Positions 22,076 to 54,434 of a stretch of DNA of 64,000 nucleotides are shown here, piece by piece. The DNA comes from Archangium violaceum (GTDB lineage: Bacteria > Myxococcota > Myxococcia > Myxococcales > Myxococcaceae): positions 8,683,501 to 8,747,500 of the forward strand of contig NZ_CP069338.1 of the NCBI RefSeq assembly GCF_016859125.1, written 5' to 3'. Position numbers and translations under genes: made by a program. Position 1 is the first letter of the stretch, and each line of letters opens with the position of its first letter. Under the pieces are notes generated by a model, which saw only the letters and a list, made by a program, of their open reading frames with translations, did not search any database and was not told where the DNA came from.

Positions 22076-22285
22076 CTAAAACGGCATGAGGGAGGACCCG
22101 CGCACTGCACTGCATGGACCTCTCCTCTGTTAGGGTAACGGCGCCAGCTCGGCGCGCAACTTCCCAGGTCAACCCGACGACACTACCTGACCGGAGGGCA
22201 GCCAGGGGTCAGGACGTTGGGAGTGACTGCGGAGGTGGAACGGTTGAACCCAATGGGAGAAGTAGCATTCCCAAAGGGGGAAGCC

Positions 22286-23694: not shown

Positions 23695-24954
23695 ATGAAG
23701 TTCTTGGGCGAACTCGATCCAGTAGCAACCCAGCGGACGCAGGCGTGCAACGCGCGCCTTGTCGATCCCAACCGTCTGCAGGCGATCCGGGACACGGGGC
23801 TGATGGACACGCCTCGTGAGGAAGCCTTTGACCGCCTCGCGCGCCTGGCAGCCCAGCTCCTGCATGTTCCCTTGACCATCTTTTCCCTGGTGGACGCCGA
23901 TAGACAATTCTTCAAGGCGGACTTCGGCCTCCCGTCGCCGTTCAAGGAGACTCGAACGTTGCCGATCGATGCCTCTCTTTGCCGCTACACACTCGAGGGC
24001 GAGTCGATCATTTCGTCGAACGCTCCGGCCGACCCCTTCCTGAGGCTTCACCCGTCGACCGGCCCCTGGGGGATCGTCGCCATCATCGTACTCCCGTTGA
24101 TCAACCCTGATGGACACGTGCTGGGGACCTTCTGCGCCATCGAGCCCAAGGTGCGCGAGTGGACCGAGCATGATCTCACGATCATGCGAGAGCTGACCGC
24201 TTCCATCATGACGGAGATCCATCTCCGCGAGCAGATCCAGAAGCTGAAAGCCGAGCAGAATCTCCGGGAGACCTTCGTCGCGGCGTTGACTCATGATCTG
24301 CGCACGCCCATGACGTCATCGAAGCTGCAGCTGCAGCTTCTCGGAAGACGCCACGCGGACCTGCCCGGTGTCCAGACGGCGGTGACTCGGGTCACCCAAA
24401 GTCTGGACCGCGCGGAGCGCATGATCCAGGACTTGCTGGACGCCAGCGCACTGAGAGCCGGGAAACCGGTGTCGCTGAAGCTGAGCCACTGCGACCTCCA
24501 CGAGATCACGGCTCAGACCCTGCAGGAGCTCGCGGCGGTTCACAAGGAGCGCTTCGTCCTGAAGGCAGAAGGCGAGATTCCGATGATCGGGGACCCGAGC
24601 GGGCTCCGCCGGATCGTCGAGAACCTGGCGTCGAACGCGGCAAAGTACGGCGCGCCGGACACTCCGATCGAAGTATTGCTCGGCCGGCGCCATGACGAAG
24701 TGACGCTTCGAGTGACGAATCAAGGAAACCCCATCCCCGAGGACGAGCTGTTGACCATCTTCGAGCCGTTTCACCGGTCGAGGTCCGCGACGGAGAGCGC
24801 CCACAAGGGCTGGGGGCTGGGGCTCCCCCTGGTCAAGGGCTTTGCTGAAGCGCACGGCGGAAGGGTGACGGTGACGAGCTCGTACCAGGACGGGACCTGC
24901 TTCACGGTCACGCTTCCGCCCACCCCGGCGCAGCGGACTGTGCACCACGCTTGA
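23695..24954 (+). CDS. GAF-domain sensor histidine kinase
   Basis: A soluble 419-residue kinase: an N-terminal GAF domain (about 25-170, with FDRLARLAAQLLHVPLTIFS and a long RQFFKADFGL strand), a short coiled linker, HisKA with AALTHDLRTPMTSSK (His near residue 201), and HATPase with NLASNAAKYG and a G-box GWGLGLPLVKGF. No receiver or membrane segment is present, so it phosphorylates an unlinked regulator in response to a cytoplasmic cue bound by GAF. The ATG at 23695 lies only 10 bp after the IS701 target duplication. The native promoter has therefore probably been separated from it, and expression may depend on read-through or an outward IS promoter. Confidence 0.88.
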   Translation: MKFLGELDPVATQRTQACNARLVDPNRLQAIRDTGLMDTPREEAFDRLARLAAQLLHVPLTIFSLVDADRQFFKADFGLPSPFKETRTLPIDASLCRYTLEGESIISSNAPADPFLRLHPSTGPWGIVAIIVLPLINPDGHVLGTFCAIEPKVREWTEHDLTIMRELTASIMTEIHLREQIQKLKAEQNLRETFVAALTHDLRTPMTSSKLQLQLLGRRHADLPGVQTAVTRVTQSLDRAERMIQDLLDASALRAGKPVSLKLSHCDLHEITAQTLQELAAVHKERFVLKAEGEIPMIGDPSGLRRIVENLASNAAKYGAPDTPIEVLLGRRHDEVTLRVTNQGNPIPEDELLTIFEPFHRSRSATESAHKGWGLGLPLVKGFAEAHGGRVTVTSSYQDGTCFTVTLPPTPAQRTVHHA

Positions 24955-25022: not shown

Positions 25023-25664
25023 TCAGAACTCGATCACGAGGCTGATCCGATTGGGCAGCACCTGAGCCCGCTGTGAGCTCAACCGGTACGTAGGGCTGGA
25101 GAGAACGCGCACGACACAGTCGCGCTGCTCGCGCTTCAGCTCCGCGCCTGGGCCCAGGGGCTCGAACTCGTGGTCCGCCACCGCGCCGCTCTCCGGGTTC
25201 ACCGAAGCCGTCCAGCGCAACACGCCAGGCCTCTCCGTCCCCGTGAAGCACTGCGCGAGCCGGGGGCTGCGCGCCGCGACCTGCAGGCGAAAGTCGTCGA
25301 GCCACGTCGGCGGCGCTTGCGTATCCCCTTGATAGCGACCGCGCGGCTGGGGCTTGACCTGGGCCCGCAGCGGTTCGCGCCTGGGCGGGGCAGGCGCGGG
25401 AATCTTCGGCTTGACCTCGGGCTTCTCCCGCACCACGGCCTTCGTCGGCGGTGGCGCCTGCTGGCACTCGCAGCGCGTCAGGCAGGCGAGCAAGAGCAGC
25501 AATGCCAGGCCCACCGCACGACGTACGCGTCGGCGGTTCCTCTCGCGGCGCACCGCTGGGAGTTGCCGCGCACGCTCGCGCGCCTGTTGTCGCATGAGCG
25601 CCAGCGAACGGCGCAATTCCTCGCGGCGCTGGCGCATCTCTCGCCGCAGCTCGCGCGGCGTCAT
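25023..25664 (-). CDS. AgmX/PglI-like TonB-type protein of the motor operon
   Basis: A 213-residue protein with a very basic, heptad-rich cytoplasmic N-terminus (MRQRREELRRSLALMRQQAR), one membrane span near residues 52-66 (VGLALLLLLACL), a periplasmic Pro/Lys-rich linker (KAVVREKPEVKPKIPAPAPP), and a C-terminal domain with LAQCFTGTERPGVLRWTASV and a later Cys. That C-terminus resembles the AgmX/PglI C-terminal domain of gliding and TonB-like proteins. It could transmit force or energy across the periplasm. It is the last gene of the operon; its ATG overlaps the stop of the preceding gene (ATGA). This family links the operon to envelope-spanning machines. Confidence 0.78.
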   Translation of the reverse strand: MTPRELRREMRQRREELRRSLALMRQQARERARQLPAVRRERNRRRVRRAVGLALLLLLACLTRCECQQAPPPTKAVVREKPEVKPKIPAPAPPRREPLRAQVKPQPRGRYQGDTQAPPTWLDDFRLQVAARSPRLAQCFTGTERPGVLRWTASVNPESGAVADHEFEPLGPGAELKREQRDCVVRVLSSPTYRLSSQRAQVLPNRISLVIEF

Positions 25665-27610
25665 TCGGTGATCCTCCAGCCGAACACCAGCGCGCCATTC
25701 GCGTCCCGCCACTCCACCGGTTGCAGTGAAAGGGGCGAGAAGGCCGAGGGCGCCTCGGTTTCTGACGTCCGGAACGGCCACGGCAGCGGATCCGCTGGAG
25801 CCAGTCGGATGTTGCCAGCGAACGCCTCATGGCGGGGCGACAGGGCACGGGCCCTCCCCTCGGCCGAAGTGTCGAGGTAGCTCAATCCCTCGAGGATGGC
25901 CTGCGCACGGGCGCGGAGCTCTTCCGCCGTGCGGACGTGCGCATTGCTCCCTCCCGTCCCGGCCGCGAGCGAGTCGAGGACACGGATGACGAGCTTCAGC
26001 ATGGGAACATTCGCCGCGCGCACGTCCGCGTCCTCGGCCTCGAGGTGCTCCAGGAGTTGCCGCACGAAGCGCAGCGTGAGGTAGGGCTCCTCGGCCGCCG
26101 CGTCGCGAAGCCGCGTAGCCATCTCACCCGGCTTGCCCTGAGCGAGCGGACGCAGCCGTGCGATGTGCGCGTCGAACGCCCCGCCGCGCCGGGCGCTCGC
26201 CACCACCCGCTCGAACGAGCGCTCATCGCTCCTCAGCGCGGCCCTCCAGACCAGATCCTCGATGACCGGGTTGTACTCCTGCCGCGGCACCAGTGCCTTC
26301 AACGTGGCGATGACCTCCTCGCTGGTCTCGTAGCGCGACAGCACATAGGACAACCACCTCCGGGCGAGCGCCCGGATGGCAGCCGATTCGCGAGACTCCT
26401 CCGCCGTCGCCATCGCATAGGCGAACGAGCGCAGCGCGTCCTGCTGCTGTCCGGACTCGAGGAATGCGACGCCCCGGTGCAACGCGATGACCGACCGCTC
26501 CCGAAAGCCGGTGCCAGGCTCGAGCTCGAGGAGCCGCTTGCCTCGTTCACCCGCGATGAGCTCACCGCGCCTGCTCGGTGTCTCGCCCGCGTCCAGGTGG
26601 CCGATCCACGCCTCCAACTCATCGCCGGCCTTGCGTTCGATGAGCGCGTCGATGATGTCGAGCACGAGCTGCTCCAGGGCTCGAGCGTCCCGGGCCAGGG
26701 GTCGTGCCTGCGCGAACAGAAAGAGGCGCCGCTGGCGGTTCAAGGTCAGCCACTCATCCGCCCGCCAGGTCAGGCTCCGGCGCAAGAAGGCCGCCTGCTC
26801 CGAATTCTCCGGCCACGCCGAAGCCGCTTCACGCACCTCGCGAATCCCTTCGCTGGAAACGCCGGCGTTTCGGGCCCGCTGCGCCACCGTGAGGCCCTGT
26901 TGCCGGGCTTGCCGGGCCCGCAGCCGCACCAGTGCGAGATCGAGGTCGAAAATGCGCGCCTCCACCGCGGCGACGCTCTGGACCTTCTCGCGCACCAGGG
27001 TGTGGAGAGACATCTTCAGGAGCCGACGCAGCAGCAGCCCCGAGCTGAGGCGATCGTCGAGGTCATACCGGGGTAATAGGTGACCCGGCTTGAACTCGGG
27101 CAACTGACCCGACTCGAACATCGTGAGGTAGGGAAGGAGGCACTTGCTGCGGAAGAAATTCACCGAGCGCAGCTCTGGGGCCGAGAGGACATCATTGAGT
27201 GAGATGAACCGCTGCTGCCGCCCGACTTCGAAAGCCCTGAAGGGAGCCGGTATCTCGGGCGGGGGACCCTTGACCATCGCCTGGGTCACCCAGTTGTGCA
27301 GTGCCAGCGGCCACAAGCCCGCGCCCCCCTGATCGTCCTTGGGAAAACCGTCCTGACACAGCCCACGATTGCCCAGCGCGGCCCACACGACGGAGCGGAA
27401 CTCCTCGTCATGGCTCCCGCGCTCGCCCAGGTTGGCCAGGCTGTTGTGGAGCAACCAGAGCTTGAGCACCTCCTCCGGCCGCTCCTCCCGAAGGGCCAGC
27501 CGCGCGTTGTAGAAGACGAGCGTCTGATTCGACGGAGGCTCGCTCGCCACCGCGGCGGTCGCCAGGGTGAGCGCGAGGAGGGGGACGGCCCAGGACCTCA
27601 AAACGCCCAC
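25661..27610 (-). CDS. Large exported alpha-helical repeat protein (motor operon)
   Basis: About 649 residues. A signal peptide (GVLRSWAVPLLALTLATAAVAS) is followed by a mature chain that is almost entirely helical, with many LxxA and Arg-rich helices (e.g. AIRALARRWLSYVLSRYETS and EVIATLKALVPRQEYNPVIE). It resembles TPR/SEL1-like superhelices without a clean TPR consensus. It is probably periplasmic and a scaffold for assembly. The GTG at 27610 is chosen; it overlaps the end of the upstream gene by 13 bp, and a TTG at 27601 is an alternative. It has no enzyme motif. Its place within the MotA/MotB/FliG-like operon suggests a structural ring or adaptor component. Confidence 0.72.
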   Translation of the reverse strand: MGVLRSWAVPLLALTLATAAVASEPPSNQTLVFYNARLALREERPEEVLKLWLLHNSLANLGERGSHDEEFRSVVWAALGNRGLCQDGFPKDDQGGAGLWPLALHNWVTQAMVKGPPPEIPAPFRAFEVGRQQRFISLNDVLSAPELRSVNFFRSKCLLPYLTMFESGQLPEFKPGHLLPRYDLDDRLSSGLLLRRLLKMSLHTLVREKVQSVAAVEARIFDLDLALVRLRARQARQQGLTVAQRARNAGVSSEGIREVREAASAWPENSEQAAFLRRSLTWRADEWLTLNRQRRLFLFAQARPLARDARALEQLVLDIIDALIERKAGDELEAWIGHLDAGETPSRRGELIAGERGKRLLELEPGTGFRERSVIALHRGVAFLESGQQQDALRSFAYAMATAEESRESAAIRALARRWLSYVLSRYETSEEVIATLKALVPRQEYNPVIEDLVWRAALRSDERSFERVVASARRGGAFDAHIARLRPLAQGKPGEMATRLRDAAAEEPYLTLRFVRQLLEHLEAEDADVRAANVPMLKLVIRVLDSLAAGTGGSNAHVRTAEELRARAQAILEGLSYLDTSAEGRARALSPRHEAFAGNIRLAPADPLPWPFRTSETEAPSAFSPLSLQPVEWRDANGALVFGWRITE

Positions 27611-28443
27611 CCCGCGCTGAAACTCAGCTCCCACCACAAGCCGAGCCCGGAACCGTCAACTCCCGAGATGAGCGGCAGCGCGACCAGGACGCGCGGAGAC
27701 AAGAAGCCACCGGGCTGGAAGTAGATGTCGAGGGAGAACCCCGTGAGGAGACTGTATCTCGCACCATCGAGCTGCATTCCGGGCAACCGCGAGCTCTCGA
27801 GGTTTTCGACTTCCCGCTCCGACAGCTTCGGAGCGAAGAGCGACGTGACGGTTTCGCCGAAGCTCGCGCCGGAAAGGGAGCCCGGGTAGAACAGGTAGCG
27901 CAGACCCGCGTTCGCGGAGAACACCAGCTCGGTCGCGGGAAAGAAACCCGGCCGTGCCGTCGCCACCCCTTCGGCGAGCGGGTAGCCCAGGTTGAGGTCC
28001 AGCTCGAAGCGGCTGGGACGCCCGGATTGGCGGTAGGGCGTGAGTGCCAGCTTCTCCGTGCTCGAGCTCCCCCGCGTGAACACCCGGGTGATGGCGATTT
28101 CGCCCAGGAAGCCCCCGATGGGCGTACGAACGAACCCGCCCAGCCGAGTGCTCTTGAAGTTGTTGAGCTCGAGGAGCTGACTGCCCACCAGCCCGATGCC
28201 GGCCCGTGTCTGGCGCCAATCGAAGCGCACGGCTCGGGATGCTGTCCCGATCATCCGCTCGTTGAGCGCCTCGAACGGCGTGCGATGGCGCTCGATCGTC
28301 GTGTCCTCCTTCTTGGATTCGGAATCGGCCGCCTGCGCGTCGTCGCCGCGAGCCGGCTGCGTGGAATCGGCGGCTGGCTCCTCGGCGGCCCAAGTCGTCC
28401 GCGGCAGCGCCAGACAGGCGATGAGGAGCACGCTACGGATCAT
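27598..28443 (-). CDS. Predicted outer-membrane beta-barrel protein (motor operon)
   Basis: A 281-residue exported protein: signal MIRSVLLIACLALPRTTWAA, an acidic linker (EPAADSTQPARGDDAQAADS), then about ten amphipathic strands (FELDLNLGYPLAEGV, ELVFSANAGLRYLFYP, RYSLLTGFSLDIYF, WWELSFSAGWAF), ending in Phe as is typical of outer-membrane barrels. It lies in the motor operon between a large lipoprotein and the helical repeat protein and overlaps the upstream gene by 11 bp. It may anchor the machine in the outer membrane or form an exit pore. No specific barrel family is assigned. Confidence 0.75.
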   Translation of the reverse strand: MIRSVLLIACLALPRTTWAAEEPAADSTQPARGDDAQAADSESKKEDTTIERHRTPFEALNERMIGTASRAVRFDWRQTRAGIGLVGSQLLELNNFKSTRLGGFVRTPIGGFLGEIAITRVFTRGSSSTEKLALTPYRQSGRPSRFELDLNLGYPLAEGVATARPGFFPATELVFSANAGLRYLFYPGSLSGASFGETVTSLFAPKLSEREVENLESSRLPGMQLDGARYSLLTGFSLDIYFQPGGFLSPRVLVALPLISGVDGSGLGLWWELSFSAGWAF

Positions 28444-30439
28444 GAGGAAAGCCTCCGTCGGCCGGATCCGGGTAGCGTGGGCGGTAGCACTGGTTGCGGT
28501 AGCTCTCTCGGAAACGCCTGGTGACGTTGTAGACGCCGTCCGAGTCGAAGGTCGGATGCTCACAGAAGCGTGTGCACTGCAGGAGCGTGTCGTCGAGGGG
28601 GAACTCGTCCTCCAACCACATCTCGGGGCCGTACGCCTCATTGCTCGTGGTCGGAATGCCGAAGGGCACGGTGAGCGAAAAGGCGCTGACCGCCCCAGCG
28701 ATGAAGACCTCGTATCGAAGGCGCGTGACAAAGGGAAAATCCCAGCGCAGCCCAAGTTCATAGACCGGCTGGGGTGTCGCCTCGTGAAGCTCGGGCAACG
28801 TCTCCAACGAAGCTGGCTCGGGGCTCAACGGGGTGCGAAAGACAACGTAGGAAGCGCGCGGGTTGTCCGACATGCAATGCGAGAAGACGTCACCCGGCGC
28901 CGCCGTCAGGATTTCATTGTTGAAGAAGGTGATGACGCCGAATTCGCCGATCTGGATGTTCTCTGAAATCGGCGTGCGCTCGGGTGCCAGGAACCGCAAC
29001 TCGCGCATCTGGCCCGCCTGCGCCTCGGAGTACTTCGAGACGAACGTCAGGTACTGCGCACGGGTGGGGAGGATGGGCAGGCTGTTGATGCGAAACGGCC
29101 CCACCTGGAGGTCGGACCTATCCGGCAGCACGGGACAGGAGTGCTGCGACTGGTCGGGAACCTGGTCGAGATCATCCACGGCGAGGTTCGCGGGGCACCA
29201 GAGCACCAGACTCTTGAGCGGCGCGCGCCCGAGCGTGTGGGAGAAACTGTCGAACACGAAGGCACCGCTCACTCGCGGCGAGCTCTTGTCACGCTCGAAA
29301 GGGAGTGTCTGCTCCAGCGCCCGCTCGATGACGTTTGCGAGCTCCCCGCTCGGTTCGTCGTGATGAAGGGCCAGGGTGAGCACCATGTCCCGTCCCTGGG
29401 TGCGGACCTCGTCGATCCGTGCACGAAAGCGGGCCGAGAGCTCGGCGGCGAAGCCGGTGTCGCGCCAGTCGTCGATACAGATTTCGGGCGCGCCCGCGAT
29501 CAGGAGCCGCTGCATCTGCATCGACAGATGGGGATTGGAGATCGTCCTCCTGCAAGGCCTCAACAGGAAGCCGATGGCGGTATTGGCGCGGATGGGGCTG
29601 CGCAAGGCGGGGAAGGCGGGGCGAACCTCGGGGTTCTTGCGCGCCAACGCCACCGCGTCGAATGTGCCCTTGGCGTCCGTCACGGTCGCTCGGGCGCAGA
29701 CGCCAGAGGAGGTCGAGGCCGACAACGGCAGCTCGTCGTCACCGAACATCGCGCGCGTCGAGGTCTCGAGCGGCGCCCAGCCCAGTGGAGTCAGCGCATC
29801 CGGGCACGCGGAGGCGGACGCGTATCCATAGGGATTGTCGTCGGGCGGCCGAGCGATATCGCCGTGCCGCGGGTCGGCGATGCGGAAGGTGCGCCGCAAC
29901 CCCAGCTCCTGCACCTCGTGGTTGCGGAGGGTTGGGAATTGGTGGCGGGCGCGCCACTGCACGTGGGTGTTTTTCTCGTCGAAGACGCCATACACGACGA
30001 GGCTACGGCTCCTGTGGGGTGGTCCCGTGCCGACGATGTTGAGTTTCGTCGGGGGGGTGAGGGCCAGCACCCCGTCGCGGTGGTAACGCAGGCGAACCCC
30101 TACCTGCCGCGGAACGCGCTCCACGTGCAGGCTGGTGCTACCGCACCGAGCCGTGATGCCACAGTCGACCGGTACGTGCGTATGCACCGTGCTGAGCTGG
30201 GAGAGGGGAGTCCAGGGCAGCTCGACATCATCGGTGCGGTAGGAAACCTCGATCTGACTCTCGGGCCCGAGGCCCTGTTGGGCGTTGGCGCGATAGAAGA
30301 TGAAGAGCGTCTTCTCCTCCTCGAACCAGGCCGCGTCCGCGAGCGCGAACCCCGCCTGGATGTCGGTGAGCGGCACCTTCTCACAGGAGGCGCAGGCGAA
30401 GAGCACCAGGAGCAGACATGTCCGGCCGAGGGTACCCAT
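28433..30439 (-). CDS. Large lipoprotein of the motor operon
   Basis: A 668-residue lipoprotein: the signal ends LFACASC (lipobox, Cys near residue 19). The mature part is mostly beta and contains many Cys (for example VDCGITARCGS, APEICIDDW, LWCPANL, SQHSCPV, CTRFCEHP), which suggests disulfide-stabilised domains in the periplasm or on the cell surface. A central helix-rich part (ELSARFRARIDEVRTQGRDM) may be an alpha/beta domain. I do not recognise a family. The start directly follows the stop of the FliG-like gene (TGA ATG), so it is translated with it. Its size and position suggest a structural part of the envelope-spanning motor, possibly bridging to the outer membrane. Confidence 0.75.
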   Translation of the reverse strand: MGTLGRTCLLLVLFACASCEKVPLTDIQAGFALADAAWFEEEKTLFIFYRANAQQGLGPESQIEVSYRTDDVELPWTPLSQLSTVHTHVPVDCGITARCGSTSLHVERVPRQVGVRLRYHRDGVLALTPPTKLNIVGTGPPHRSRSLVVYGVFDEKNTHVQWRARHQFPTLRNHEVQELGLRRTFRIADPRHGDIARPPDDNPYGYASASACPDALTPLGWAPLETSTRAMFGDDELPLSASTSSGVCARATVTDAKGTFDAVALARKNPEVRPAFPALRSPIRANTAIGFLLRPCRRTISNPHLSMQMQRLLIAGAPEICIDDWRDTGFAAELSARFRARIDEVRTQGRDMVLTLALHHDEPSGELANVIERALEQTLPFERDKSSPRVSGAFVFDSFSHTLGRAPLKSLVLWCPANLAVDDLDQVPDQSQHSCPVLPDRSDLQVGPFRINSLPILPTRAQYLTFVSKYSEAQAGQMRELRFLAPERTPISENIQIGEFGVITFFNNEILTAAPGDVFSHCMSDNPRASYVVFRTPLSPEPASLETLPELHEATPQPVYELGLRWDFPFVTRLRYEVFIAGAVSAFSLTVPFGIPTTSNEAYGPEMWLEDEFPLDDTLLQCTRFCEHPTFDSDGVYNVTRRFRESYRNQCYRPRYPDPADGGFPHDP

Positions 30440-32284
30440 TCAAGCCATGATCTCCGAGAACGAGACCTTGCCTCGCGCCACCAACTTCTTCACCGCGGAC
30501 ACCAGCTCGTTGTGACCACGCTGCGCGACCTGGAGCTGATCGGCACGAGAGACGAACGCCTGGTTCGCACGTACGGCTTCCTGCATGGTGGGCGCAAGCC
30601 GGCTGATGAAGCTCTCCTGCCACTCAGGATTCTGAACCGAGGACCAGCCGGCAAGCCCCTTGAGATCCACTTCGAGCAGCATGTCCGCTCGAAGCTCGTT
30701 GGGCAGCTTGAAGAGCATGTCTGGATAGAAGATGTCCTCGTACCAGCGCGGAAACACACCATTCGAGCGCTGGAGCGCGTTCGTGAACAGGGACTGGCGA
30801 TCTTCGGCGCCGATGTGCGCGAACAGCACCGAGAGCGCTCCCGCTGCATCGAGCTCGCGCCCTCGATCGAGGATGTCGTGTGGCGCCGGCTTGGGAGCGG
30901 GCGGCAGAGGCAGCCCCGCCCGCGCGGCATCCAGCACCTCGAAGAGGTATCCCCGCTCCTCCTTGGACATGCGGTTGGACGACAACAGCTGACTCGCGAC
31001 CCGCAGGCGAAGCTCGGACGACAGGGTGCGCGCTACCTCCTGCTGGCCGTCGGTGGGCACCAGGGCGAAGAGCAGCGCCCCGAACCTCAGCGGAAGCTTC
31101 TCGATCAGCTGGACCACGCCGACACTGCCGAACTCCTCGCGAAGGCTGCGGTAGATTTCCGCGTCGGACTGCGCGAGCAGGGACGACGAGATGGAATGTT
31201 GGTTGAGCTTGCGAAAGAACTCAGCGTCCGAGGGCAGGCGCTCCGGGTCCACGTTTCGCAGGAACTCCGCGAGCTCCACCTTGCGGATGGCGAGCTCGCC
31301 ATCCGAGGAGAACGCCAGGGACAGCCGGTCACCAAAGACGAAGATGGCCTTGGCCAGGAGCTCGAACTCTCGCGCCTTCAACCACTCGCGCATCAACTCC
31401 ACCACGCCGCCCTCGTCCTTGCCCAGCTCGGCCTGGGCGATCCGGTCGGTCCACAACCGCTGCTGCTCGGTGACGAAGGCGCTCTCCTCGCGCTCCTCCG
31501 CCGAGGGGACCTGGGGAGCCGCAGGGGGGTTCTCCGCCGCGGGTGCAGCGGCCTCCTGCGCGCCATCTGACTTGCCGAGCGTACCGGCCGCCAGCTGCGC
31601 CAGCATCGCCTTTTCCTCGATCGACTCCCGCCCGAGGCGACGAAGCCCCCAGATGATGACCAGGGTGGCCAGGGTCCCCATCACCAACGCGATCATCCAC
31701 GAGAAGTGCGGAAGCAGGCTCACCCACAACTCGCGCAGCGCCACCCCTGCTTCCCATCTGGCGGGCGGCTCGGGCTGTGGGGCGGGCGCGGGCGCGGGCG
31801 GAGGCTCGACGCGGGGCGGCGGGGCCGGCTCGGGCGGCTCGCTCAAGCTCGCGGAAATGGGCTCGAGGATCTGACGTCCCACCGTCACCTGGAGCCAGCC
31901 CTTCGACAGCCGCTGCTCCAGCCGCCTGACGAGGGCCTGGACGTCGCGGGACGAGACGGACTTCTCGTGGGCGAAGTCGCAGCGCGCACTGGTGAGGTAC
32001 TCCTGCGGCGGCACGCTGCCAGGGCCTTCGGAGTGGCCAAGCCCAGGCAGGGAGGACGAGTGCGGCATGTCGACCACCACGTGGTCGCGGTAGACGCATC
32101 CCTTGGAGACACAGCGCTCAGATGCACAGTCGCGCGCCAGCGCGAGGTCGAACTGACTCTCGAGCGCGCGCAGCTCCATCAGCACGGGCGAGGGAATGTG
32201 CTTCTGCGGCACCGGAGTGACGCTCGTCTGGGCAAGGGCACTCAAAGGCAACGCGAGTGCGAGCAGGGAGATGAGGTTTCTCAT
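30440..32284 (-). CDS. FliF/FliG-like rotor protein of a non-flagellar motor
   Basis: A 614-residue protein. Residues 1-19 are a signal peptide; 20-145 are periplasmic with four Cys (53, 58, 63, 102); 146-178 are Pro-rich; and 194-214 form one membrane span (SWMIALVMGTLATLVIIWGL), like the C-terminal span of FliF. The cytoplasmic part, about 270-614, matches the layout of FliG: a middle-domain-like region (385-455, VQLIEKLPLRFGALLFALVP), then 470-614 resembling FliG-C, with ADMLLEVDLKGLAGWSSVQN in the place of the charged torque helix and LVSAVKKLVARGKVSFSEI at the end, like FliG's last helix. It therefore looks like a membrane-anchored rotor, a FliF-FliG-type fusion. The assignment is by pattern from memory; no alignment was run. 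It overlaps the MotB-like gene by 1 bp. Confidence 0.75.
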   Translation of the reverse strand: MRNLISLLALALPLSALAQTSVTPVPQKHIPSPVLMELRALESQFDLALARDCASERCVSKGCVYRDHVVVDMPHSSSLPGLGHSEGPGSVPPQEYLTSARCDFAHEKSVSSRDVQALVRRLEQRLSKGWLQVTVGRQILEPISASLSEPPEPAPPPRVEPPPAPAPAPQPEPPARWEAGVALRELWVSLLPHFSWMIALVMGTLATLVIIWGLRRLGRESIEEKAMLAQLAAGTLGKSDGAQEAAAPAAENPPAAPQVPSAEEREESAFVTEQQRLWTDRIAQAELGKDEGGVVELMREWLKAREFELLAKAIFVFGDRLSLAFSSDGELAIRKVELAEFLRNVDPERLPSDAEFFRKLNQHSISSSLLAQSDAEIYRSLREEFGSVGVVQLIEKLPLRFGALLFALVPTDGQQEVARTLSSELRLRVASQLLSSNRMSKEERGYLFEVLDAARAGLPLPPAPKPAPHDILDRGRELDAAGALSVLFAHIGAEDRQSLFTNALQRSNGVFPRWYEDIFYPDMLFKLPNELRADMLLEVDLKGLAGWSSVQNPEWQESFISRLAPTMQEAVRANQAFVSRADQLQVAQRGHNELVSAVKKLVARGKVSFSEIMA

Positions 32285-32910
32285 CAGTAGATTCTCACGA
32301 TGACGCGGCGGTGCCGGGCCAGACGCTCCTCGGCGCTCAGCCCCTTGAGTTGCTCTTCAGGCAGCGGCTTGGTGTCGGCGTAGCCCTCGACGCGAATCCG
32401 CTCGCGCGGGATTCCGACATCCTCGAGCCGCTGCCTCACGACGATCGCGCGTGCGCTGGAGAGCTCCCAATTCGAGGCGAATAGCCCCCCGTTCACGATG
32501 GGCGTGGAGTCGGTGTGCCCCTCGACCGCGAAGCCGTACTTCTTCGAATAGGGCGCGAGCACCTGCAGCATCGACGCCACGGTCTGTTCGAATTCGGGAC
32601 GCAGCTTCGCCTTGCCCGAGTCGAACACCAGCCCGGAGTTGAGCGAGAGCTCCAGCCCCTCGGCCGACACGCTGGTGTGTACCAGGTCCTGCAGTTGCTT
32701 GCTCGCGATCTGCGCGTCGATCTCCTTGCGGATGGACTCGAGGCTCGCCGGGCTCTCGGCACCGGACATGCTCTTGACGATCTGTTGCATCCGGCCCTTG
32801 TTCAAGTTCGCCGCCGTGAGCAGCACGACGAAGAAGAGCAGCAGGTTGGTGATCAGATCCGCGTAGCTGAGCAGCCAACTTTCATCATGCCCCTTGGCGC
32901 GCCGTCGCAT
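32284..32910 (-). CDS. MotB-like stator protein with OmpA domain
   Basis: A 208-residue protein with one membrane span near residues 15-35. ESWLLSYADLITNLLLFFVV contains Asp18, equivalent to the proton-carrying Asp of MotB. The short linker (about residues 36-80) is followed by an OmpA/MotB-like peptidoglycan-binding domain: FAVEGHTDSTPI and NWELSSARAIVVRQRLED are clear. It should anchor the MotA-like channel to the cell wall. It is shorter than E. coli MotB (308 residues), so the plug and linker region is reduced. The start overlaps the MotA-like gene by 26 bp and the stop overlaps the FliG-like start by 1 bp, so the three are translationally coupled. Confidence 0.9.
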   Translation of the reverse strand: MRRRAKGHDESWLLSYADLITNLLLFFVVLLTAANLNKGRMQQIVKSMSGAESPASLESIRKEIDAQIASKQLQDLVHTSVSAEGLELSLNSGLVFDSGKAKLRPEFEQTVASMLQVLAPYSKKYGFAVEGHTDSTPIVNGGLFASNWELSSARAIVVRQRLEDVGIPRERIRVEGYADTKPLPEEQLKGLSAEERLARHRRVIVRIY

Positions 32911-33625
32911 GGCTCACGACCCCCCCTCGAGCGACCAGCTCATTGACGCTCTTCTCGCAGCGCTCGAGGAACCCCAGCCGCTCATCGAGCAGTCCATTGA
33001 GATAATGACCGATCGGCCCGGCGACGCCAGCACCGAAGGCCACCCCATAGAGCGTGGCGAGCAACGCCAGGGACATGGCCGATCCGATGTTGAGGTTGTC
33101 CGAGTTCATGTTGCGGAACAGCTGGATCATTCCGGTGATGGTTCCCACCATTCCGAATGCCGGGCCGAGCTTGGAGAGCATCTCCCAGTTGCTGATCGCC
33201 GGCTGCCAGCGGCTGATCTCCTCGTGCCGGAGCTCCAGGAAGGCCTTGGAGCTGGCGACCTCGGGTGAGCGATTGAGGATGAGCTCCACCATCTGCTTGA
33301 TCGCGGCGAAGCGGCTCTTCTCCGCGAGCGAGAGCGCTCCACTGCGCTTGCCCTCGCGCCAGAGGGTGTAGAGCTGCTCCCGCTCGGCCTCCATCTGCGA
33401 GGTGGCGTGGCCGAAGAGGCGCAGACCCGGGACGAACTCTCGCAGGCAGAGAAGGGTGCGCAGCGCCGTTGTGTGGCTGGAGCTGACCAGCACCGCCGAG
33501 GCCGAGCCCACCACCACCATCACCAACGCGTGGGGGTCGAACGCCGAAACGACCTGCGCGTTTCCGCGATCCTTGAATCCGAACCAGACGACGAACCCCA
33601 GAACGATGAATCCGAGAATCTGCAC
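32885..33625 (-). CDS. MotA-like proton-channel stator protein
   Basis: A 246-residue inner-membrane protein with four spans in MotA order: residues 3-17, 31-50, about 150-170 (KLGPAFGMVGTITGMIQLF) and 182-208 (SAMSLALLATLYGVAFGAG). The Pro of LGPAFG corresponds to the conserved Pro of MotA span 3. The cytoplasmic loop carries KRSGALSLAE, aligning Arg94 and Glu102 eight residues apart as in the R90/E98 pair that contacts FliG in E. coli MotA. With the downstream MotB-like gene it should form a MotA/MotB-type ion channel. TolQ/ExbB proteins share the fold but have three spans and lack this pair, so a flagellar-type stator is favoured. Confidence 0.9.
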   Translation of the reverse strand: MQILGFIVLGFVVWFGFKDRGNAQVVSAFDPHALVMVVVGSASAVLVSSSHTTALRTLLCLREFVPGLRLFGHATSQMEAEREQLYTLWREGKRSGALSLAEKSRFAAIKQMVELILNRSPEVASSKAFLELRHEEISRWQPAISNWEMLSKLGPAFGMVGTITGMIQLFRNMNSDNLNIGSAMSLALLATLYGVAFGAGVAGPIGHYLNGLLDERLGFLERCEKSVNELVARGGVVSHATARQGA

Positions 33626-33635
33626 GAGGTGTCTC

Positions 33636-34265
33636 CTACTTCTGCTGCCGCTGCAGCTCTTCGAGCTTCTTGCGGACGTCCGGGTCGCTCTCGATCGTTT
33701 CCACCTGCTCGTAGATCTCGATCGCCTTGTCGCGCTCGCCCATCATCAGCAGCAGCGAGGCCTTGGCCCGCAGAAACTCCGGGTGGGACTTGTAGCGCTG
33801 CAACACCGTCTCACACCACTCGAGCGCCAGGTGATAGTTGCCCTCCTTGACCGCCTCCTGCATCAGGGTGCGCGCGCGCGTGATGCTCACTTCGGGTGAG
33901 CTCTCGTCGATGCTCAGGCCTCGTGCCCGGTAGGCCTCGATGAGCGACTTGTCGGCGCTCGTCGGCGGTGGAGGAACCACCCGGGTGGCCGGGATGGTCT
34001 TGACATCGCCACTCCCCGCGCCGTGCTCGATGACGATCCGCTGTCCCGTCGAGAGGACCGGCACGTCGACCTCGGTGATGAGGTTGCCGTCGTTCCACCG
34101 GACCTTCATCACCGTCGTCGACCCGAAGCCGAAGGGCCTCATCAGCGTTCCCTCCTCCTTGAGCGCCGGGTGCTTCTGGGGCTCCGGCTCGACCAGGTAG
34201 TAGGTGTAGTTACGCGCCGCGCAGGACACGAGGAGTGGGAAGAGGAGGAGCAAGAGCCGGTTCAT
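33636..34265 (-). CDS. TPR lipoprotein of the motor operon
   Basis: A 209-residue lipoprotein: signal MNRLLLLLFPLLVSCAAR with the lipobox Cys near residue 15. The N-terminal half contains beta strands (TLMRPFGFGSTTVMKVRWND); the C-terminal half has two or three TPR-like helix pairs (EGNYHLALEWCETVLQRYKS, KAIEIYEQVETIESDPDVRK). It is probably on the periplasmic face of the outer membrane and may assemble a ring, as TPR lipoproteins do in other envelope machines. Its ATG overlaps the stop of the preceding outer-membrane gene (ATGA), and the MotA-like ATG follows after 10 bp. Confidence 0.82.
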   Translation of the reverse strand: MNRLLLLLFPLLVSCAARNYTYYLVEPEPQKHPALKEEGTLMRPFGFGSTTVMKVRWNDGNLITEVDVPVLSTGQRIVIEHGAGSGDVKTIPATRVVPPPPTSADKSLIEAYRARGLSIDESSPEVSITRARTLMQEAVKEGNYHLALEWCETVLQRYKSHPEFLRAKASLLLMMGERDKAIEIYEQVETIESDPDVRKKLEELQRQQK

Positions 34266-35224
34266 GGCAGGAAGGGCATCCAGGAGAGGTTCATGAGGGA
34301 GAATCCGACCCCGATCCGCCCGTTGGTCGAGGCCGAGAGGGTCACTCCGTAATTGGAAGTACCAATGGGCACACGCACCATGAAGACGGCCGTGAGCAAG
34401 GGGTCGATGAGCTGCTGCGGCTGTCCCGAGATGCCGGTCACCACGGCGGTCGGCACGCTCAGCAGCACCTTGGCGCCCACCATGATGTTCAAGGCCCTCG
34501 GCACCACGCGGTAGTAGGAGGCACCGACGCCCAGCACCGGGTCGAAGAGCGACACCGACACCCCGGAGAGGTTGGCGTTGGTATCGCCCCACTGCTCCGC
34601 CCAATCGAGCGAGACATGCTGCCCCGGGTACATGGTCACGTCGATGAAGGTGTGAGTGAGGCTGTCAGCTCGTGCGCGGCGATCGAGCTCCCGCGCCAGG
34701 GAGAAGTTCCTCCGGGTGCGTGCCGGCTCGGTCAGCCTCGGATCGAAGTTCTCGGCGAGCACGATGCGGCTGTTCTTCAGGTCGATGATGCGCAACGACA
34801 CGCCTTCGGCCGTTTCGTCCAACCAGATCGCCGTGCGCGCGGGTGAGGCACTTCCGCGGCTCATCTCGTCCAGCCGGGTGATTTCGGCCGTGCCCAGACT
34901 GGTCGTGAACTGCTCGAGCTTCCCCTCCTCGACGTACAGGCGAGGCGCCATACACGCCTCACACGAGCGCAGCGAGGCCGCACCGAAGACGCGCACCAGC
35001 GTCGCCAGTGCTTCGGTCGGATACCAGGCCCGCGACTCCTCGAACGTGGGAGTGACGCTCACGACGATGGCGGGCGTCAGGTCCTTGGCCACGAAGGCGC
35101 CGTCCTCGAGGCGCATGGCCAGGGTCTCCTCGAAGCGCGAGAGCGCCTCCCGTGTCGTCTCGCGCTGGGCGAGGGCCGTCATCGGTAGCAATGCGGCGAG
35201 CAGGACGAGGCGCGCTAGAAGCAA
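34262..35224 (-). CDS. CxxC outer-membrane protein A (motor operon)
   Basis: A 320-residue exported protein. The start is TTG at 35224 with GGAGG seven nt upstream, giving the signal LLLARLVLLAALLPMTALA. The N-domain (about 30-190) contains SLRSCEACMAPRLYVEEGKL and a segment GVSLRIIDLKNSRIVLAENF, typical of CsgG/FlgO/LpoB-like alpha/beta lipoprotein folds; the C-terminal part (about 210-320) is a run of amphipathic strands ending SLMNLSWMPFLP, a likely beta-barrel. It shares the CxxC-plus-barrel layout with the neighbour at 35215, suggesting a duplication. Likely in the outer membrane. The previous gene's end overlaps by 10 bp. Confidence 0.72.
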   Translation of the reverse strand: MLLARLVLLAALLPMTALAQRETTREALSRFEETLAMRLEDGAFVAKDLTPAIVVSVTPTFEESRAWYPTEALATLVRVFGAASLRSCEACMAPRLYVEEGKLEQFTTSLGTAEITRLDEMSRGSASPARTAIWLDETAEGVSLRIIDLKNSRIVLAENFDPRLTEPARTRRNFSLARELDRRARADSLTHTFIDVTMYPGQHVSLDWAEQWGDTNANLSGVSVSLFDPVLGVGASYYRVVPRALNIMVGAKVLLSVPTAVVTGISGQPQQLIDPLLTAVFMVRVPIGTSNYGVTLSASTNGRIGVGFSLMNLSWMPFLP

Positions 35225-36402
35225 AATGACACCTCCACGCCCAGGGCGTGCACCTGGATGGGGCCCAGGTTCACGTAGCGGCCGATCGAAGGGGCATTGT
35301 TCATCGAAGGCAGCGATTCGACGAACACCGAGGCGCCGATGCGGTTCTTCACTCGCAATTCGAGCCCCAGCTGCAACGTGCCGAAGAGTGCATGGGGCTG
35401 GCCCTTGAGGAGCTCCGTGGCCAGGTCCTCGAGGTTGGGGACTCGGTCCTTGAACACCAGCGCGCTGAGTCCATGGATGGACGTCACCGAGCCGCCGACG
35501 AAGCCGTAGAGGTCGGGACGGGTCAGCGACGTCACCGACCCAGAGAGAAGACGCGAGATGCGCCCCTGGACCATCACCCCCACGTGCCTCTGAGGCATCC
35601 AGCTGGCGCCCAGCATGAGGCTCCCGGTCCAGGCGCGAGCCTGGGTGAGCGGCGCTTCGGCACCGGCCTGCAGCCAGAGGAAGGGAGCCACCATCACCGA
35701 ACCACTTCCCGGGGCATAGCTGCGAACCCCGAAACGAACGGGCACCAGGTAGACGCTTCGTCCCCGCAGCGTGTCGAGGTACTCCTGCCGCGCCTCGGAG
35801 GCGCTCTTCAGGCGATCCGCGGTGCGCAGCAGCGCCGGAGACGAGGTCGAGGTGGACAGGGTCTTCGCATAGACGATGGGCAGCGCCGGCTCGAGCGCCG
35901 TGATGCGCGCGCGCAGCACCAGCGCGGCGCCCTCCACCTCGAAGTCGAGGAAGAGGGCATGACGGCTGCCGGAGAGGGCTCCCGCCGTGGAGAGGGCCTC
36001 GGGTTCGTCCACGCCACGGGAGATGATGGTGCCCTTGGCCCCCGAGTGCACCACCACCGACGTACACTGCGGGCAATGCGCGAGAATCACCCGGGTGCGT
36101 GGGTTCTTCACCACCAGGGAGGCGAAGTGGTTCTCGATCAGCGCCTGGAGCCCGCTGCCGAAGCCCACCGGCACGCTGACATCGGCGAGCACCACGGGCG
36201 TTTCCAGGGCGAAGACGGGCTGCTCGATCCAGCTGAAGACGAGCTCGTCGAGCAGATCATAGGCCTGGAGCTGGATCTGCGCCGCCACCTGCGCTCGCAG
36301 CGACTCGAGCTGCGCCCTGCGCGCCTCGGTGACCGTCTGCTCCTCGGCCAGGGCGGATACCGGCAACAGCGCGAAGGCCAGGCACAAGAGCACGGGCCTC
36401 AC
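35215..36402 (-). CDS. CxxC outer-membrane protein B (motor operon)
   Basis: A 395-residue exported protein. The GTG at 36402 overlaps the preceding stop (GTGA) and gives the signal PVLLCLAFALLPVSALAEE. A CsgG/FlgO-like N-domain has VILAHCPQCTSVVV (CxxC) at a position matching the paralogous neighbour, and then HALFLDFEVEGAALVLRARI. The C-terminal half, about 215-395, is rich in strands (GSLMLGASWMPQRHVGVMVQ, LFGTLQLGLELRVKNRIGAS) and ends VHALGVEVSFCF with the terminal aromatic typical of barrels. Probably an outer-membrane component that could anchor the motor. No family name is certain. Confidence 0.75.
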   Translation of the reverse strand: MRPVLLCLAFALLPVSALAEEQTVTEARRAQLESLRAQVAAQIQLQAYDLLDELVFSWIEQPVFALETPVVLADVSVPVGFGSGLQALIENHFASLVVKNPRTRVILAHCPQCTSVVVHSGAKGTIISRGVDEPEALSTAGALSGSRHALFLDFEVEGAALVLRARITALEPALPIVYAKTLSTSTSSPALLRTADRLKSASEARQEYLDTLRGRSVYLVPVRFGVRSYAPGSGSVMVAPFLWLQAGAEAPLTQARAWTGSLMLGASWMPQRHVGVMVQGRISRLLSGSVTSLTRPDLYGFVGGSVTSIHGLSALVFKDRVPNLEDLATELLKGQPHALFGTLQLGLELRVKNRIGASVFVESLPSMNNAPSIGRYVNLGPIQVHALGVEVSFCF

Positions 36403-37040
36403 TGCAACCACCTCCACTCGCCACGCATGCACAGCCCGGCATGGAGTTGCGTCTCGCGCGCATCGATGATCATCAGCCCCAGGAAGGCGTCCCGCTCGTC
36501 GAGCACCCGCTGCGCGAAGTAGCGCGCGCAGGCGAGCGGGTAGGCCTTGCTTGCCGGCATGCGCCCAAGCACCGCGATGTCGCCCGCGGCGAGTACCGGT
36601 ACCCGGTCCGACACCTTGTGCCCGCGCTCGGCGAGCTGCGTCCTGGCCGCGACCGAGATCTTCGCCGCCACCGCTGGCTCTGGATAGAAAGCATCCACGT
36701 GCCAGGTGAGCTCGCCGGAGCCGAGGGCACTCGCGATCCGGGTGATCTCACCCACCGTCTGGTCCAGCGACGAAAGGATGACCTCGTCACGGTCGGGTCT
36801 CTCCCCGTAGCGCATGAAGCGACGGGTGCAGGCGAGCGCGTCGGTGACCCCGGAGGTGCCACGGGGCGTTAGATCCGGAACCAGATCCGGATAGCGTTCG
36901 TGCGCCTGGGCCTGGCTGAGGCGGGTGCACTCCAGATTGCGGGCCTCTTCCTTGCTCTGCCAGGGCCCGGCGATGGGATCGTTCGCGCGTACCCCGTAGA
37001 TCGGTAGAGGCATCAGGAGGATGAGCAGCAGGAGCTCCAT
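36399..37040 (-). CDS. Exported protein of unknown function (motor operon)
   Basis: A 213-residue protein with a short hydrophobic start, ELLLLILLMPLPIYGVRAND, that acts as a signal peptide. The mature chain has Cys residues in ECTRLSQ, ALACTRRF, LACARYFAQ and LHAGLCMRG, which may pair as disulfides, and a mixed alpha/beta pattern. No family is recognised. It overlaps the GTG of the next gene by 4 bp and follows the first gene by 19 bp, so it is part of the same transcript. Probably periplasmic. Confidence 0.72.
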   Translation of the reverse strand: MELLLLILLMPLPIYGVRANDPIAGPWQSKEEARNLECTRLSQAQAHERYPDLVPDLTPRGTSGVTDALACTRRFMRYGERPDRDEVILSSLDQTVGEITRIASALGSGELTWHVDAFYPEPAVAAKISVAARTQLAERGHKVSDRVPVLAAGDIAVLGRMPASKAYPLACARYFAQRVLDERDAFLGLMIIDARETQLHAGLCMRGEWRWLQ

Positions 37041-37059
37041 GGGTCTCTCTTCCGGGGGC

Positions 37060-37776
37060 TCACTTCGTACTGGACGGAGGTTCGGGCTCGAAGCCGCGCA
37101 TCACCACCGAGCGCATGTGCGCATTGAACGCGAGCTGACTGAGCTGGCCGTAGAAATCACGAGAAAAGTCCCGGCTGGCTCTGTCGCCGCCCAGTTTCTC
37201 CGCCTCGGACCGGACGAGGAGATCCAGCACGCCATTCACCGCCCACACGCTGAATCCGGAGTAGCGCACGAAGCGCCCCTGCAGGTTATCGGAGGCGAGC
37301 AGGAACCCGCTGGAATCACGAATGGTGACGTCCTGGGAGAAACTGGACTCGGTGATGGCGGGCACCAGCGTCAGCGTCAGCCCGGAGAGGATCCACAGAA
37401 GGGTGCTGTTGTCCTCGTGAAGCAGCCGCGCGCGCAGGTCGATGATGAGGTCCGGCCTGGCCTCGCCTTCCTCGTCACCACCTACCATCCCGCCCTGTTG
37501 CACCTGGACATCGACCTGCGCGCCCTGTGTCGTGAACAGCGTACGCAGGTGTTGGCACAGCTGTTGCGCCTCGTCCAACTTGAGGTAGTCACCGGGGATG
37601 CAACGCAGCAGAAACCGCTGGCCCTCGAAATTGGCCACCTGGGGGTCGATGATGACCGGGCGCTGCAGAGATACGAGCGGTTGGTAGACCGTCGTCACGC
37701 AGCCAGAGAGTATTACCGCGAGAAGCCACAGTAGGCCCGCGTGAAACCACCCGGACGCAGAATGTCGTCGGCTCAT
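37060..37776 (-). CDS. Lipoprotein, first gene of the motor operon
   Basis: A 238-residue lipoprotein: GLLWLLAVILSGC (lipobox) with Cys near residue 26. The mature domain has strands and helices typical of small LPP20/CsgG-like lipoproteins (DLIIDLRARLLHEDNSTLLW, then LTLVPAITESSFSQDVTIRD), and a helical C-terminus with a basic and acidic mix. Probably on the inner leaflet of the outer membrane. It opens the twelve-gene operon; the region before it (37777-38194) must hold the promoter. No strong Shine-Dalgarno sequence precedes the ATG at 37776. Confidence 0.78.
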   Translation of the reverse strand: MSRRHSASGWFHAGLLWLLAVILSGCVTTVYQPLVSLQRPVIIDPQVANFEGQRFLLRCIPGDYLKLDEAQQLCQHLRTLFTTQGAQVDVQVQQGGMVGGDEEGEARPDLIIDLRARLLHEDNSTLLWILSGLTLTLVPAITESSFSQDVTIRDSSGFLLASDNLQGRFVRYSGFSVWAVNGVLDLLVRSEAEKLGGDRASRDFSRDFYGQLSQLAFNAHMRSVVMRGFEPEPPSSTK

Positions 37777-38194
37777 GGGGATGCGACTCAGTCATCTGGC
37801 GCCGCCGCTGAATGCAAAGGCTACGCCAGGGCACGAAGACTAGCCACTGCCCAGAAGAAAACACAAGGGCCATCTGCGGATGTCCGGCACATGGCGCACC
37901 CGCTGCCACTCACTCCCGCCGGGTTGGCGGTCGAAGTTCAAGGGGGTCCGCCCGCGTCCGCCCCGGTGCGGTGGTCCGACACCCATTCGTCACGATAGAG
38001 AAACACATTGATTCAAACCTTGCCCTCAAACATCAATCATGCCAAGGCAATCACATACCATCAATAGCTGGTGTTTTTTACTCGCGTCGTAGCCGCCATG
38101 GGCTGTCAGGCTGGGAAGGAGCCGCCCCGACAATCTCGGAGAGCCATGGTTCGCCCGTGCGATGCGTGCCCCCATTCCTCTATACTCCCGGCCC
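37777..38194. promoter_or_regulatory. Divergent upstream region, AT-rich core
   Basis: About 420 bp between the motor operon (minus) and the UvrA-like gene (plus). The segment at 37995-38090 is clearly more AT-rich than its surroundings and contains two CATCAAT words (near 38032 and 38057) and a T-run (GTTTTTTA near 38071), the likely site of one or both promoters. I could not match a sigma-70 or sigma-54 consensus with confidence. No gene is seen here. Confidence 0.45.
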
Positions 38195-51646: not shown

Positions 51647-51836
51647 GGGACATTCTCCCTCAGGGAGGATGTATGAGGCGTTCCGACCTACCAATGGGTG
51701 GGGTGGCCTGATTGGCCGCAAGCTTGTCCAGGGAGCTTCTACTCCCTAGCTTCGGGCGCTGTGGAGGGCGGGATATAAGCCCTCGGCGTTGGCGGCCCGG
51801 CGTCACAGCCGGCCTGGAAAGGTGGAGCGGCACACT

Positions 51837-53231: not shown

Positions 53232-53321
53232 CATCTGGTCTCTGGCCGCGAATAGAAGGGCGCGCGCGGGCCGGAGCGAGGCATGCTCCGGTCCGATGCC
53301 CTCGCGAGGAGAGCGGCCGAG

Positions 53322-54047: not shown

Positions 54048-54053
54048 GGCGTC

Positions 54054-54431: not shown

Positions 54432-54434
54432 GTC

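Follow-up and report, generated by a model that had tools for sequence, protein, structure and literature searches.

The analysis concerns a stretch of 64,000 nucleotides from Archangium violaceum (contig NZ_CP069338.1, positions 8,683,501 to 8,747,500), called here the window, and within it a tight operon of twelve genes at positions 25023-37776 of the minus strand. The genes, numbered g01 to g12 in order of transcription, run from 37776 down to 25023 and are spaced by 19, -4, -10, -4, 10, -26, -1, 0, -11, -13 and -4 bases (range -26 to +19). The genome which carries them (G000) has a size of 12.7 Mb. The start codon of g04 is TTG at 35224, and g12 most likely starts with the ATG at 25664 and not at 25781. 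The middle of the operon encodes a MotA homologue, a MotB homologue and a protein, g08, which is considered to be a candidate rotor. A preliminary description had read here a same-strand operon of twelve genes with MotA-like and MotB-like members, and both observations hold. The features of the core are as follows.

32885..33625, minus strand: g06, MotA homologue (stator A) of flagellar type, by Pfam MotA_ExbB, PDB profile matches and tree
32284..32910, minus strand: g07, MotB homologue (stator B) with MotB span/plug and OmpA peptidoglycan domain, by Pfam
32857..32859, minus strand: Asp18 of g07, in the span, presumed ion-carrying residue, invariant in 16/16 rows
30440..32284, minus strand: g08, 614 residues, rotor candidate with a FliG-like part joined via one span to a periplasmic domain, by model, Foldseek and hhalign
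31856..32203, minus strand: g08 residues 28-143, predicted periplasmic alpha-beta-beta-alpha-beta domain in the fold class of FliF RBM3, by model and VIA
31637..31711, minus strand: g08 residues 192-216, single transmembrane span, by hydropathy and as a helix in the model
31367..31420, minus strand: g08 residues 289-306, possible counterpart of the FliF C-terminal tail motif (VIRxWL), suggestive, by hhalign
30455..31132, minus strand: g08 residues 385-610, FliG middle and C-terminal (torque) domains, by hhalign and Foldseek

A conserved operon with a flagellar-type stator

A synteny search of myxobacterial genomes recovered the full set of twelve genes at 11 loci besides the window, with identical order and a single strand in 11/11. 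A contiguous and ordered partial set is present in 52 further loci, several of which share genomes and three of which come from the window's own genome. Complete loci were also found in other families, L093 at 39-70% identity and L091 at 37-66%. This conservation goes beyond chance; the twelve-gene block is taken to be a functional unit. The distribution was followed with a g08 profile, which detected the gene in 27 of 195 Myxococcota genomes, 13 of 90 genera and five families, and did not find it in one of the six Archangium genomes searched (G002). To look beyond Myxococcota, genome contigs were scanned with a single sequence, a scan which distant relatives would escape; it gave 16 loci, 15 of them titled as myxobacterial groups and one as 'Deltaproteobacteria'.

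The type of the stator was determined by computation from several sides. The g06 protein matches Pfam MotA_ExbB (PF01618) with an E-value (E) of 1.3e-15 and 57.7 bits, the cut-off being 22.9. Comparison of a MotA profile of 14 homologues with PDB sequences gave 11 matches at E<=1, ten to MotA or PomA and one chance match at E 0.57; neither TolQ nor ExbB was among them. A maximum-likelihood tree built from 35 rows separates a flagellar group of 13 rows from 22 Exb/Tol-type rows with split support of 100/100. The former consists of the window MotA and its orthologues, sister-operon MotA, E. coli MotA and two MotA from FliG-bearing contigs, the latter includes E. coli ExbB together with nine proteins encoded in the same genome as the operon, and the window protein is the sole member of the flagellar group among ten usable MotA_ExbB proteins of that genome. 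The eleventh match, L121, is broken by an internal stop and was left out of the tree; long rows were trimmed to their last 280 residues and the L138 MotA to its last 260, and the alignment was made without L012 (wrong frame). Residues corresponding to Pro173 and Pro222 of E. coli MotA are present in 13/13 aligned MotA rows, the position of Arg90 is occupied by K, Q or R across the aligned rows, and at the position of Glu98 the window protein has Ala with Glu adjacent. In g07 the OmpA (PF00691) and MotB_plug (PF13677) families are matched at 3.6e-16 and 3.8e-15 respectively, and Asp18 is taken by homology to be the counterpart of MotB Asp32 and to share its ion-carrying role. It can be said that the window stator is of flagellar type and not of the Exb/Tol (GIT) type, which agrees with the earlier claim that it is unlike the latter.

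The rotor candidate and its relatives in sister operons

The g08 protein has a hydrophobic stretch at its N-terminus and one span at residues 192-216. An AlphaFold2 model based on a 20-sequence alignment, with a mean predicted local distance difference test score (pLDDT) of 71.8 and a predicted template modelling score (pTM) of 0.36, starts with a disordered N-terminus (signal peptide), followed by the periplasmic domain (residues 32-139 in the model), a proline-rich linker, a single membrane helix and a cytoplasmic part that is entirely helical. When the model was searched against PDB with Foldseek, FliG or flagellar-rotor entries took all of ranks 1-12, with E from 2.5e-4 for the best to 0.034 at rank 12 and three of them at E<=0.001, and the first non-flagellar entry appeared at rank 13 with E 0.17. 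Structural comparison with the tool VIA gave Z 12.5 for residues 384-614 against FliG (root mean square deviation 8.1 over 205 residues), Z 9.6 for the torque domain against the FliG C-domain 1qc7 (2.2 over 88 residues) and Z 9.3 against the FliG chain 8ucs_H of a MotAB-FliG structure, values which for a helical protein cannot settle kinship alone. Kinship is therefore carried by the sequence profile match: with hhalign the g08 profile aligns to that of 22 canonical Myxococcota FliG at E 5.1e-6 and score 52.4, residues 385-610 falling on FliG 127-339, while 150 column shuffles reached at most 30.4 (median 15.7) and reversed profiles 13.6 and 14.3. On these profile and model comparisons the kinship of the cytoplasmic part of g08 to FliG is well supported, and the FliG-type part tied by a single span to a periplasmic domain, as previously described, was recovered by the model, Foldseek, VIA and hhalign alike.

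The membrane-side half of g08 is a more delicate matter. The periplasmic domain is modelled with pLDDT of 74-89 by block, except 71-90 and the ends, and its elements follow the order of FliF RBM3; the VIA value against the FliF S-ring is Z 9.0, at which the C-terminal domain of MamM ties with it, and OsmC reaches 8.4. With one periplasmic domain and one span, g08 is unlike the two-span FliF with RBM1-3, and Pfam found no FliF family match elsewhere among the operon proteins. The extreme C-terminus of FliF is the stretch that binds FliG. Residues 289-306 of g08 (KDEGGVVELMREWLKARE), located after the span, align with this extreme end (E. coli NDPRVVALVIRQWINNDH), and behind them the FliG part continues in the same chain. 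The FliF profile used was composed of the part of E. coli FliF that begins shortly before RBM3 and of C-terminal parts upstream of FliG in other loci, leaving out five wrong-frame translations (L061, L064, L067, L078 and L082). Against it the span and tail of g08 scored 33.2 with hhalign and 89 column shuffles at most 24.6, a lenient control where spans are included, as shuffling breaks hydrophobic runs. A FliF origin of g08 is thus suggestive; of the FliF/FliG likeness described earlier, the FliG half was well supported and the FliF half was not carried beyond this grade.

Two sister operon types were reached in Myxococcota by following weak FliG_C matches. Type 2 was first seen in L086, L087 and L138, and its profile matches 17 of 193 Myxococcota genomes, some of the matches being partial. 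The gene order MotA, MotB and a rotor protein with signal peptide and one span was kept in 16/16 loci examined (10 genomes). Three type 2 rotors were scanned with Pfam FliG_C (cut-off 23.3 bits); two are above it (25.5 and 33.0) and that of L138 is below (19.1). With the type 2 rotor profile FliG is matched at E 1.9e-8, its score of 68.6 standing against a maximum of 25.6 in 60 shuffles; the match to g08 has E 5.1e-7. Type 3 comprises L088, L089 and L090 (genomes G163, G192 and G053) with the order rotor, exported protein, MotA, MotB and second MotB, so that MotAB stands beside the rotor in 3/3; the exported protein was scanned in two loci and has a tetratricopeptide repeat (TPR) at 27.1 bits in L088 and under the cut-off in L089. 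The three type 3 rotors match Pfam FliG_C at 1.8e-17, 2.2e-15 and 4.2e-21, and two of them match YscJ_FliF_C at 5.5e-4 and 8.1e-4 (20.9 and 20.3 bits, where the cut-off is 23.8). Their profile reaches FliG at E 1.2e-20, and the periplasmic part alone reaches FliF RBM3 at E 2.2e-6 and score 46.6, with a maximum of 17.3 in 100 shuffles. Computation thereby shows kinship of the type 3 rotors to both FliF and FliG, and they are natural FliF-FliG fusions beside MotAB. The type 2 and type 3 rotor profiles match each other at E 1.6e-5, and g08 is read as a diverged form of the FliF-FliG design seen in type 3. In two genomes, G001 and G075, a window-type rotor occurs along with a match to the type 2 rotor.

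Partner proteins, neighbours and flagellar genes of the carriers

The remaining nine genes of the operon encode the following proteins.

37060..37776, minus strand: g01, 238-residue lipoprotein (LSGC), by open reading frame (ORF) and lipobox; no Pfam/NCBIfam match
36399..37040, minus strand: g02, 213 residues, exported (N-terminal hydrophobic stretch), by ORF; no Pfam match
35215..36402, minus strand: g03, 395 residues, exported, possible outer-membrane barrel (C-terminal Phe), by ORF; hidden Markov model (HMM) matches in type 2 operons
34262..35224, minus strand: g04, ~320 residues, exported, possible barrel with C-terminal Pro, by ORF; no Pfam/NCBIfam match
33636..34265, minus strand: g05, 209-residue lipoprotein (LVSC) with C-terminal TPR (Pfam TPR_19 2.3e-6)
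28433..30439, minus strand: g09, 668-residue Cys-rich lipoprotein with N-terminal immunoglobulin (Ig)-like sandwich, by 14-sequence alignment and model (pLDDT 66)
27598..28443, minus strand: g10, 281 residues, exported, possible barrel (C-terminal WAF), by ORF; no Pfam match
25661..27610, minus strand: g11, ~649-residue exported protein, by ORF; no Pfam match
25023..25664, minus strand: g12, 213 residues, one span (47-65, by hydropathy), Pro-rich periplasmic part and C-terminal domain, TonB-like layout

Many outer-membrane barrels have a C-terminal Phe. The three lipoproteins of the preliminary description are borne out by the lipobox-like motifs of g01 and g05 and by Cys19 of g09, which stands behind an N-terminal hydrophobic stretch and is invariant in 14/14 sequences; a simple lipobox pattern also flags g10 (LIAC). 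Searches of the nine proteins against Pfam and NCBIfam gave nothing beyond the TPR of g05, the NCBIfam output being weak TPR-type or chance matches, and the proposed AgmX/PglI likeness of g12 was not recovered, as NCBIfam gave 0 families at E<=1. Foldseek with the g09 model listed Ig domains of antibodies and receptors, with 72 matches at E<=0.001. A family or function of g09 was not derived from them, since VIA Z is at most 6.3, and the domain is read as a generic Ig-like sandwich. Counterparts of some partners are found in type 2 operons: the g03 HMM matches in L087 (8.8e-7), L086 (1.7e-3) and L138 (2.7e-3), that of g05 matches a lipoprotein-like gene before MotA in L138 (E 1e-3), and that of g12 weakly matches a frame downstream of the rotor in L087 (8.4e-3) and L086 (0.025). 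Because of these matches, parts of an envelope assembly may be common to the window operon and type 2.

On its downstream side the operon is bordered by genes for a DDE transposase (22217-23548) and a GAF histidine kinase (23695-24954); neither has a match in loci L001-L028 at E<=1e-3. Upstream, on the opposite strand, 38162-40471 encodes a two-domain ABC ATPase which we read as UvrA-like. Farther away, a frame of 1448 residues at 51660-56006 (minus strand) overlaps other frames, has no Pfam match at E<=1e-4 and is a candidate frame only. The ARAGORN program called a tRNA of undetermined amino acid at 27975-28065 (plus strand), antisense to g10, which is probably spurious.

The absence of hook, filament, export and switch genes claimed for the operon holds for the operon itself, where no hook, filament or export family of the flagellum was found among the twelve proteins with Pfam and NCBIfam; it does not hold for the switch across the whole genome, in which two FliM/N_C proteins are encoded at G000:C1:6533024-6533215 and 7123396-7123602, both far from the operon. 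Frames of ~380-430 residues like the first of them recur in many Myxococcaceae. FliM/N_C proteins are present in 27/27 carriers of g08 and in 24/25 non-carriers, and a FliM/N partner specific to the system was rejected because the domain is equally common in genomes devoid of the operon. The own genome gave 0 flagellin matches at E<=0.001 and 0 FliG_C matches at E<=0.01. Fourteen of the 27 carriers, including all five Archangium carriers, are without a flagellin match. One of these fourteen, G075 (75% complete), may be flagellated because a canonical FliG is present; the others were tested for FliG in part only. In the 13 carriers which have flagellin, cross-use of the machine with the flagellum is possible. 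Flagellin and g08 stand on different contigs in 12 of them, where broken assemblies leave nearness possible. In the thirteenth, G159, a single contig holds both: flagellin with apparent FliD and FliS ends ~17 kb before the operon, apparently unrelated genes lie between, and FliM/N_C is also present further off on that contig. Of the three refuting conditions set by the preliminary description, two were passed, and for the third, a place of the operon beside flagellar genes, the outcome is nearly clean.

Proteins above the Pfam FliG_C cut-off are also encoded in Myxococcaceae clusters which resemble a type III secretion system (T3SS), namely in L130 (7668-9359, plus strand, 30.0 bits), L131 (4648-6624, minus, 33.6), L135 (6996-8369, minus, 31.6) and L085 (7587-9311, minus, 32.4). 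The gene adjoins an apparent SctJ-type lipoprotein and precedes ATPase-type genes, resembling the placement of fliG in flagellar operons; passages of PMC3459982 give the 'Myxo' T3SS systems as lacking FliG. Due to their T3SS-like context, the FliG_C-like proteins of L085, L129-L131 and L133-L136 were not counted as parts of motor operons. L132 and L139 hold FliG_C-like proteins similar to those of the T3SS-like clusters, and L137, which we read as an MgtE-type protein, was also set aside.

Proposed machine, competing explanations and meaning

The best reading of the operon, to which a probability of roughly 0.7 is given, is a non-flagellar rotary machine on a flagellar torque core, with g06 and g07 as stator, g08 as rotor and an output at the outer membrane. 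The stator would be peptidoglycan-anchored and ion-driven, of 5:2 composition, and ion flow via Asp18 of the MotB homologue would turn the MotA ring. g08, probably a shortened natural FliF-FliG fusion like the rotors of the sister operons, would form a ring in the inner membrane, and its FliG C-domains would mesh with the cytoplasmic face of the turning MotA ring. Formation of a ring by such a chain finds support in engineered FliF-FliG fusions, which form rings, 34- and 35-mers in the case of the Vibrio fusion according to passages of PMC11481574, where a functional Salmonella fusion is also cited. The periplasmic domain and the proline-rich linker would then carry torque to an outer-membrane assembly, possibly made of the lipoproteins g01, g05 and g09, the barrel candidates g03, g04 and g10, the exported g02 and g11 and the one-span, Pro-rich g12. 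The likeliest output would be mechanical work at the outer membrane, such as moving or exporting a surface component, and not swimming; that work, like the coupling which leads to it, is what we infer from the flagellum-type rotor and stator.

Several observations weigh against this interpretation. Pfam FliG_C does not detect g08, and comparison of its profile with PDB sequences gave none at E<=10. The pTM of the g08 model is low at 0.36, and VIA Z of 9-12.5 is, according to the tool, a level that helical bundles can reach by arrangement alone. In one MAFFT alignment the E. coli FliG torque charges R281, D288 and D289 are replaced in g08 by T, A and N, which speaks against a gear copied unchanged from the flagellum; acidic residues stand at 288/289 in three type 2 members and R281 is kept in three type 3 members. 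The periplasmic domain alone compares with the FliF profile at E 0.16. The g08-FliF score drops to 24.5 (E 0.022; 100 shuffles at most 19.3) once the span is removed, against 14.7-21.3 for six unrelated proteins of the same operon, and for this reason a FliF origin was graded as suggestive. For type 2, kinship to FliF was dropped, since the full-length score of 32.3 fell to 13.8 (E 0.51) without the span. When g08 is compared directly with type 3, the match is weak (E 0.045); the kinship between them runs through type 2. Flagellin occurs in 13/27 carriers. Finally, the ring, its rotation and the contact of g08 with its nine partners are steps that we infer.

Other explanations have to be set beside the rotary machine. 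MotAB might cycle against a ringless g08 as a pulling machine of Ton/Tol/Agl kind, the FliG-like part docking the stator and g08 or g12 passing the strokes outward. TonB and TolA have a span next to a Pro-rich periplasmic stretch, a combination found in both g12 and g08, and the missing torque charges would suit such a device; nevertheless it is judged quite unlikely, because the window MotA belongs to the flagellar and not the Exb/Tol group and the FliG M and C domains are jointly kept in three diverged systems, which exceeds the needs of a docking site. As to the output of the rotary machine, an additional gliding (surface motility) motor next to AglRQS, a special case of the preferred reading, is brought to mind by the host, a soil bacterium of the genus Archangium and thus of a gliding lineage, and by the envelope-spanning layout. 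The patchy occurrence (27/195 genomes, 13/90 genera, missing in G002) and the presence of the operon in flagellin-bearing lineages make it doubtful, although conceivable.

That g08 is unrelated to FliG, the likeness being a common helical-repeat fold as in MgtE_N, would be consistent with a weak MgtE_N match (E 0.19), an MgtE entry at Foldseek rank 23 and the low pTM of the model. It is very improbable given that the collinear profile match to FliG exceeds all 150 shuffles, that type 2 and type 3 proteins pass the FliG_C cut-off, with type 2 tied to g08 by profile, and that MotAB adjoins g08. Hardly any weight is left for a flagellum remnant in decay: MotAB and FliG-type parts without filament genes are what it would leave, but all twelve genes keep a constant order in 11/11 complete loci, the nine partners match no flagellar family, some carriers also have flagellin and two further operon types contain the same core.

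To our knowledge torque generation by FliG and MotAB has been described only in flagella, and we know of no FliG rotor in AglRQS, Tol-Pal or Ton. The window system shares with the flagellar motor the flagellar-type MotA/MotB, the FliG M and C domains and a periplasmic domain of the RBM3 fold class across a single span. It differs in that g08 is one chain with signal peptide and single span and without RBM1/RBM2, that the operon shows no FliM/N, export, rod, hook or filament family and that the nine partners stand mostly outside known families. Engineered FliF-FliG fusions of Salmonella and Vibrio, as presented in PMC11481574 and PMC6079021, likewise have FliG joined behind the FliF membrane part, whereas the window version is natural, much shorter and placed in an operon without a flagellum. 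In AglRQS, Tol-Pal and Ton, 5:2 motors according to the part of PMC9389320 consulted, an ion-driven stator also powers envelope-spanning work; their A subunits are of generic (GIT) type in the corresponding part of PMC12505986, in contrast to the flagellar group of the window MotA. That survey of MotAB from 2025 splits stators into flagellar and generic, and the passages used here do not speak of a flagellar-type stator encoded outside flagellar operons. The myxobacterial non-flagellar T3SS is similar in using flagellum-derived parts without a flagellum in the same bacteria, and different in its type III export apparatus (both from passages of PMC3459982), as no such family is seen in the window operon. 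No description of the operon, nor of a natural FliF-FliG fusion outside flagella, was found in the open-access papers searched.

The window motor is plausibly a variant of the flagellar-type rotor-stator motor, and the machine as a whole plausibly a new class. The wider proposal, that Myxococcota hold a class of non-flagellar rotary machines with FliF-FliG-type rotor, flagellar-type MotAB and outer-membrane drive in at least three operon types, as an exapted core or pre-flagellar cousins, is tentative and given slightly less than an even chance. The operon and its sisters are testable candidates, with rotor and stator genes side by side, a defined partner set and no flagellum needed. They also provide comparative material on how evolution put together or dismantled the stator, the MS-ring and the C-ring. 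If they prove to be an exapted core or pre-flagellar cousins, they would bear directly on the origin of the flagellum, and flagellar torque may serve a use as yet undescribed.

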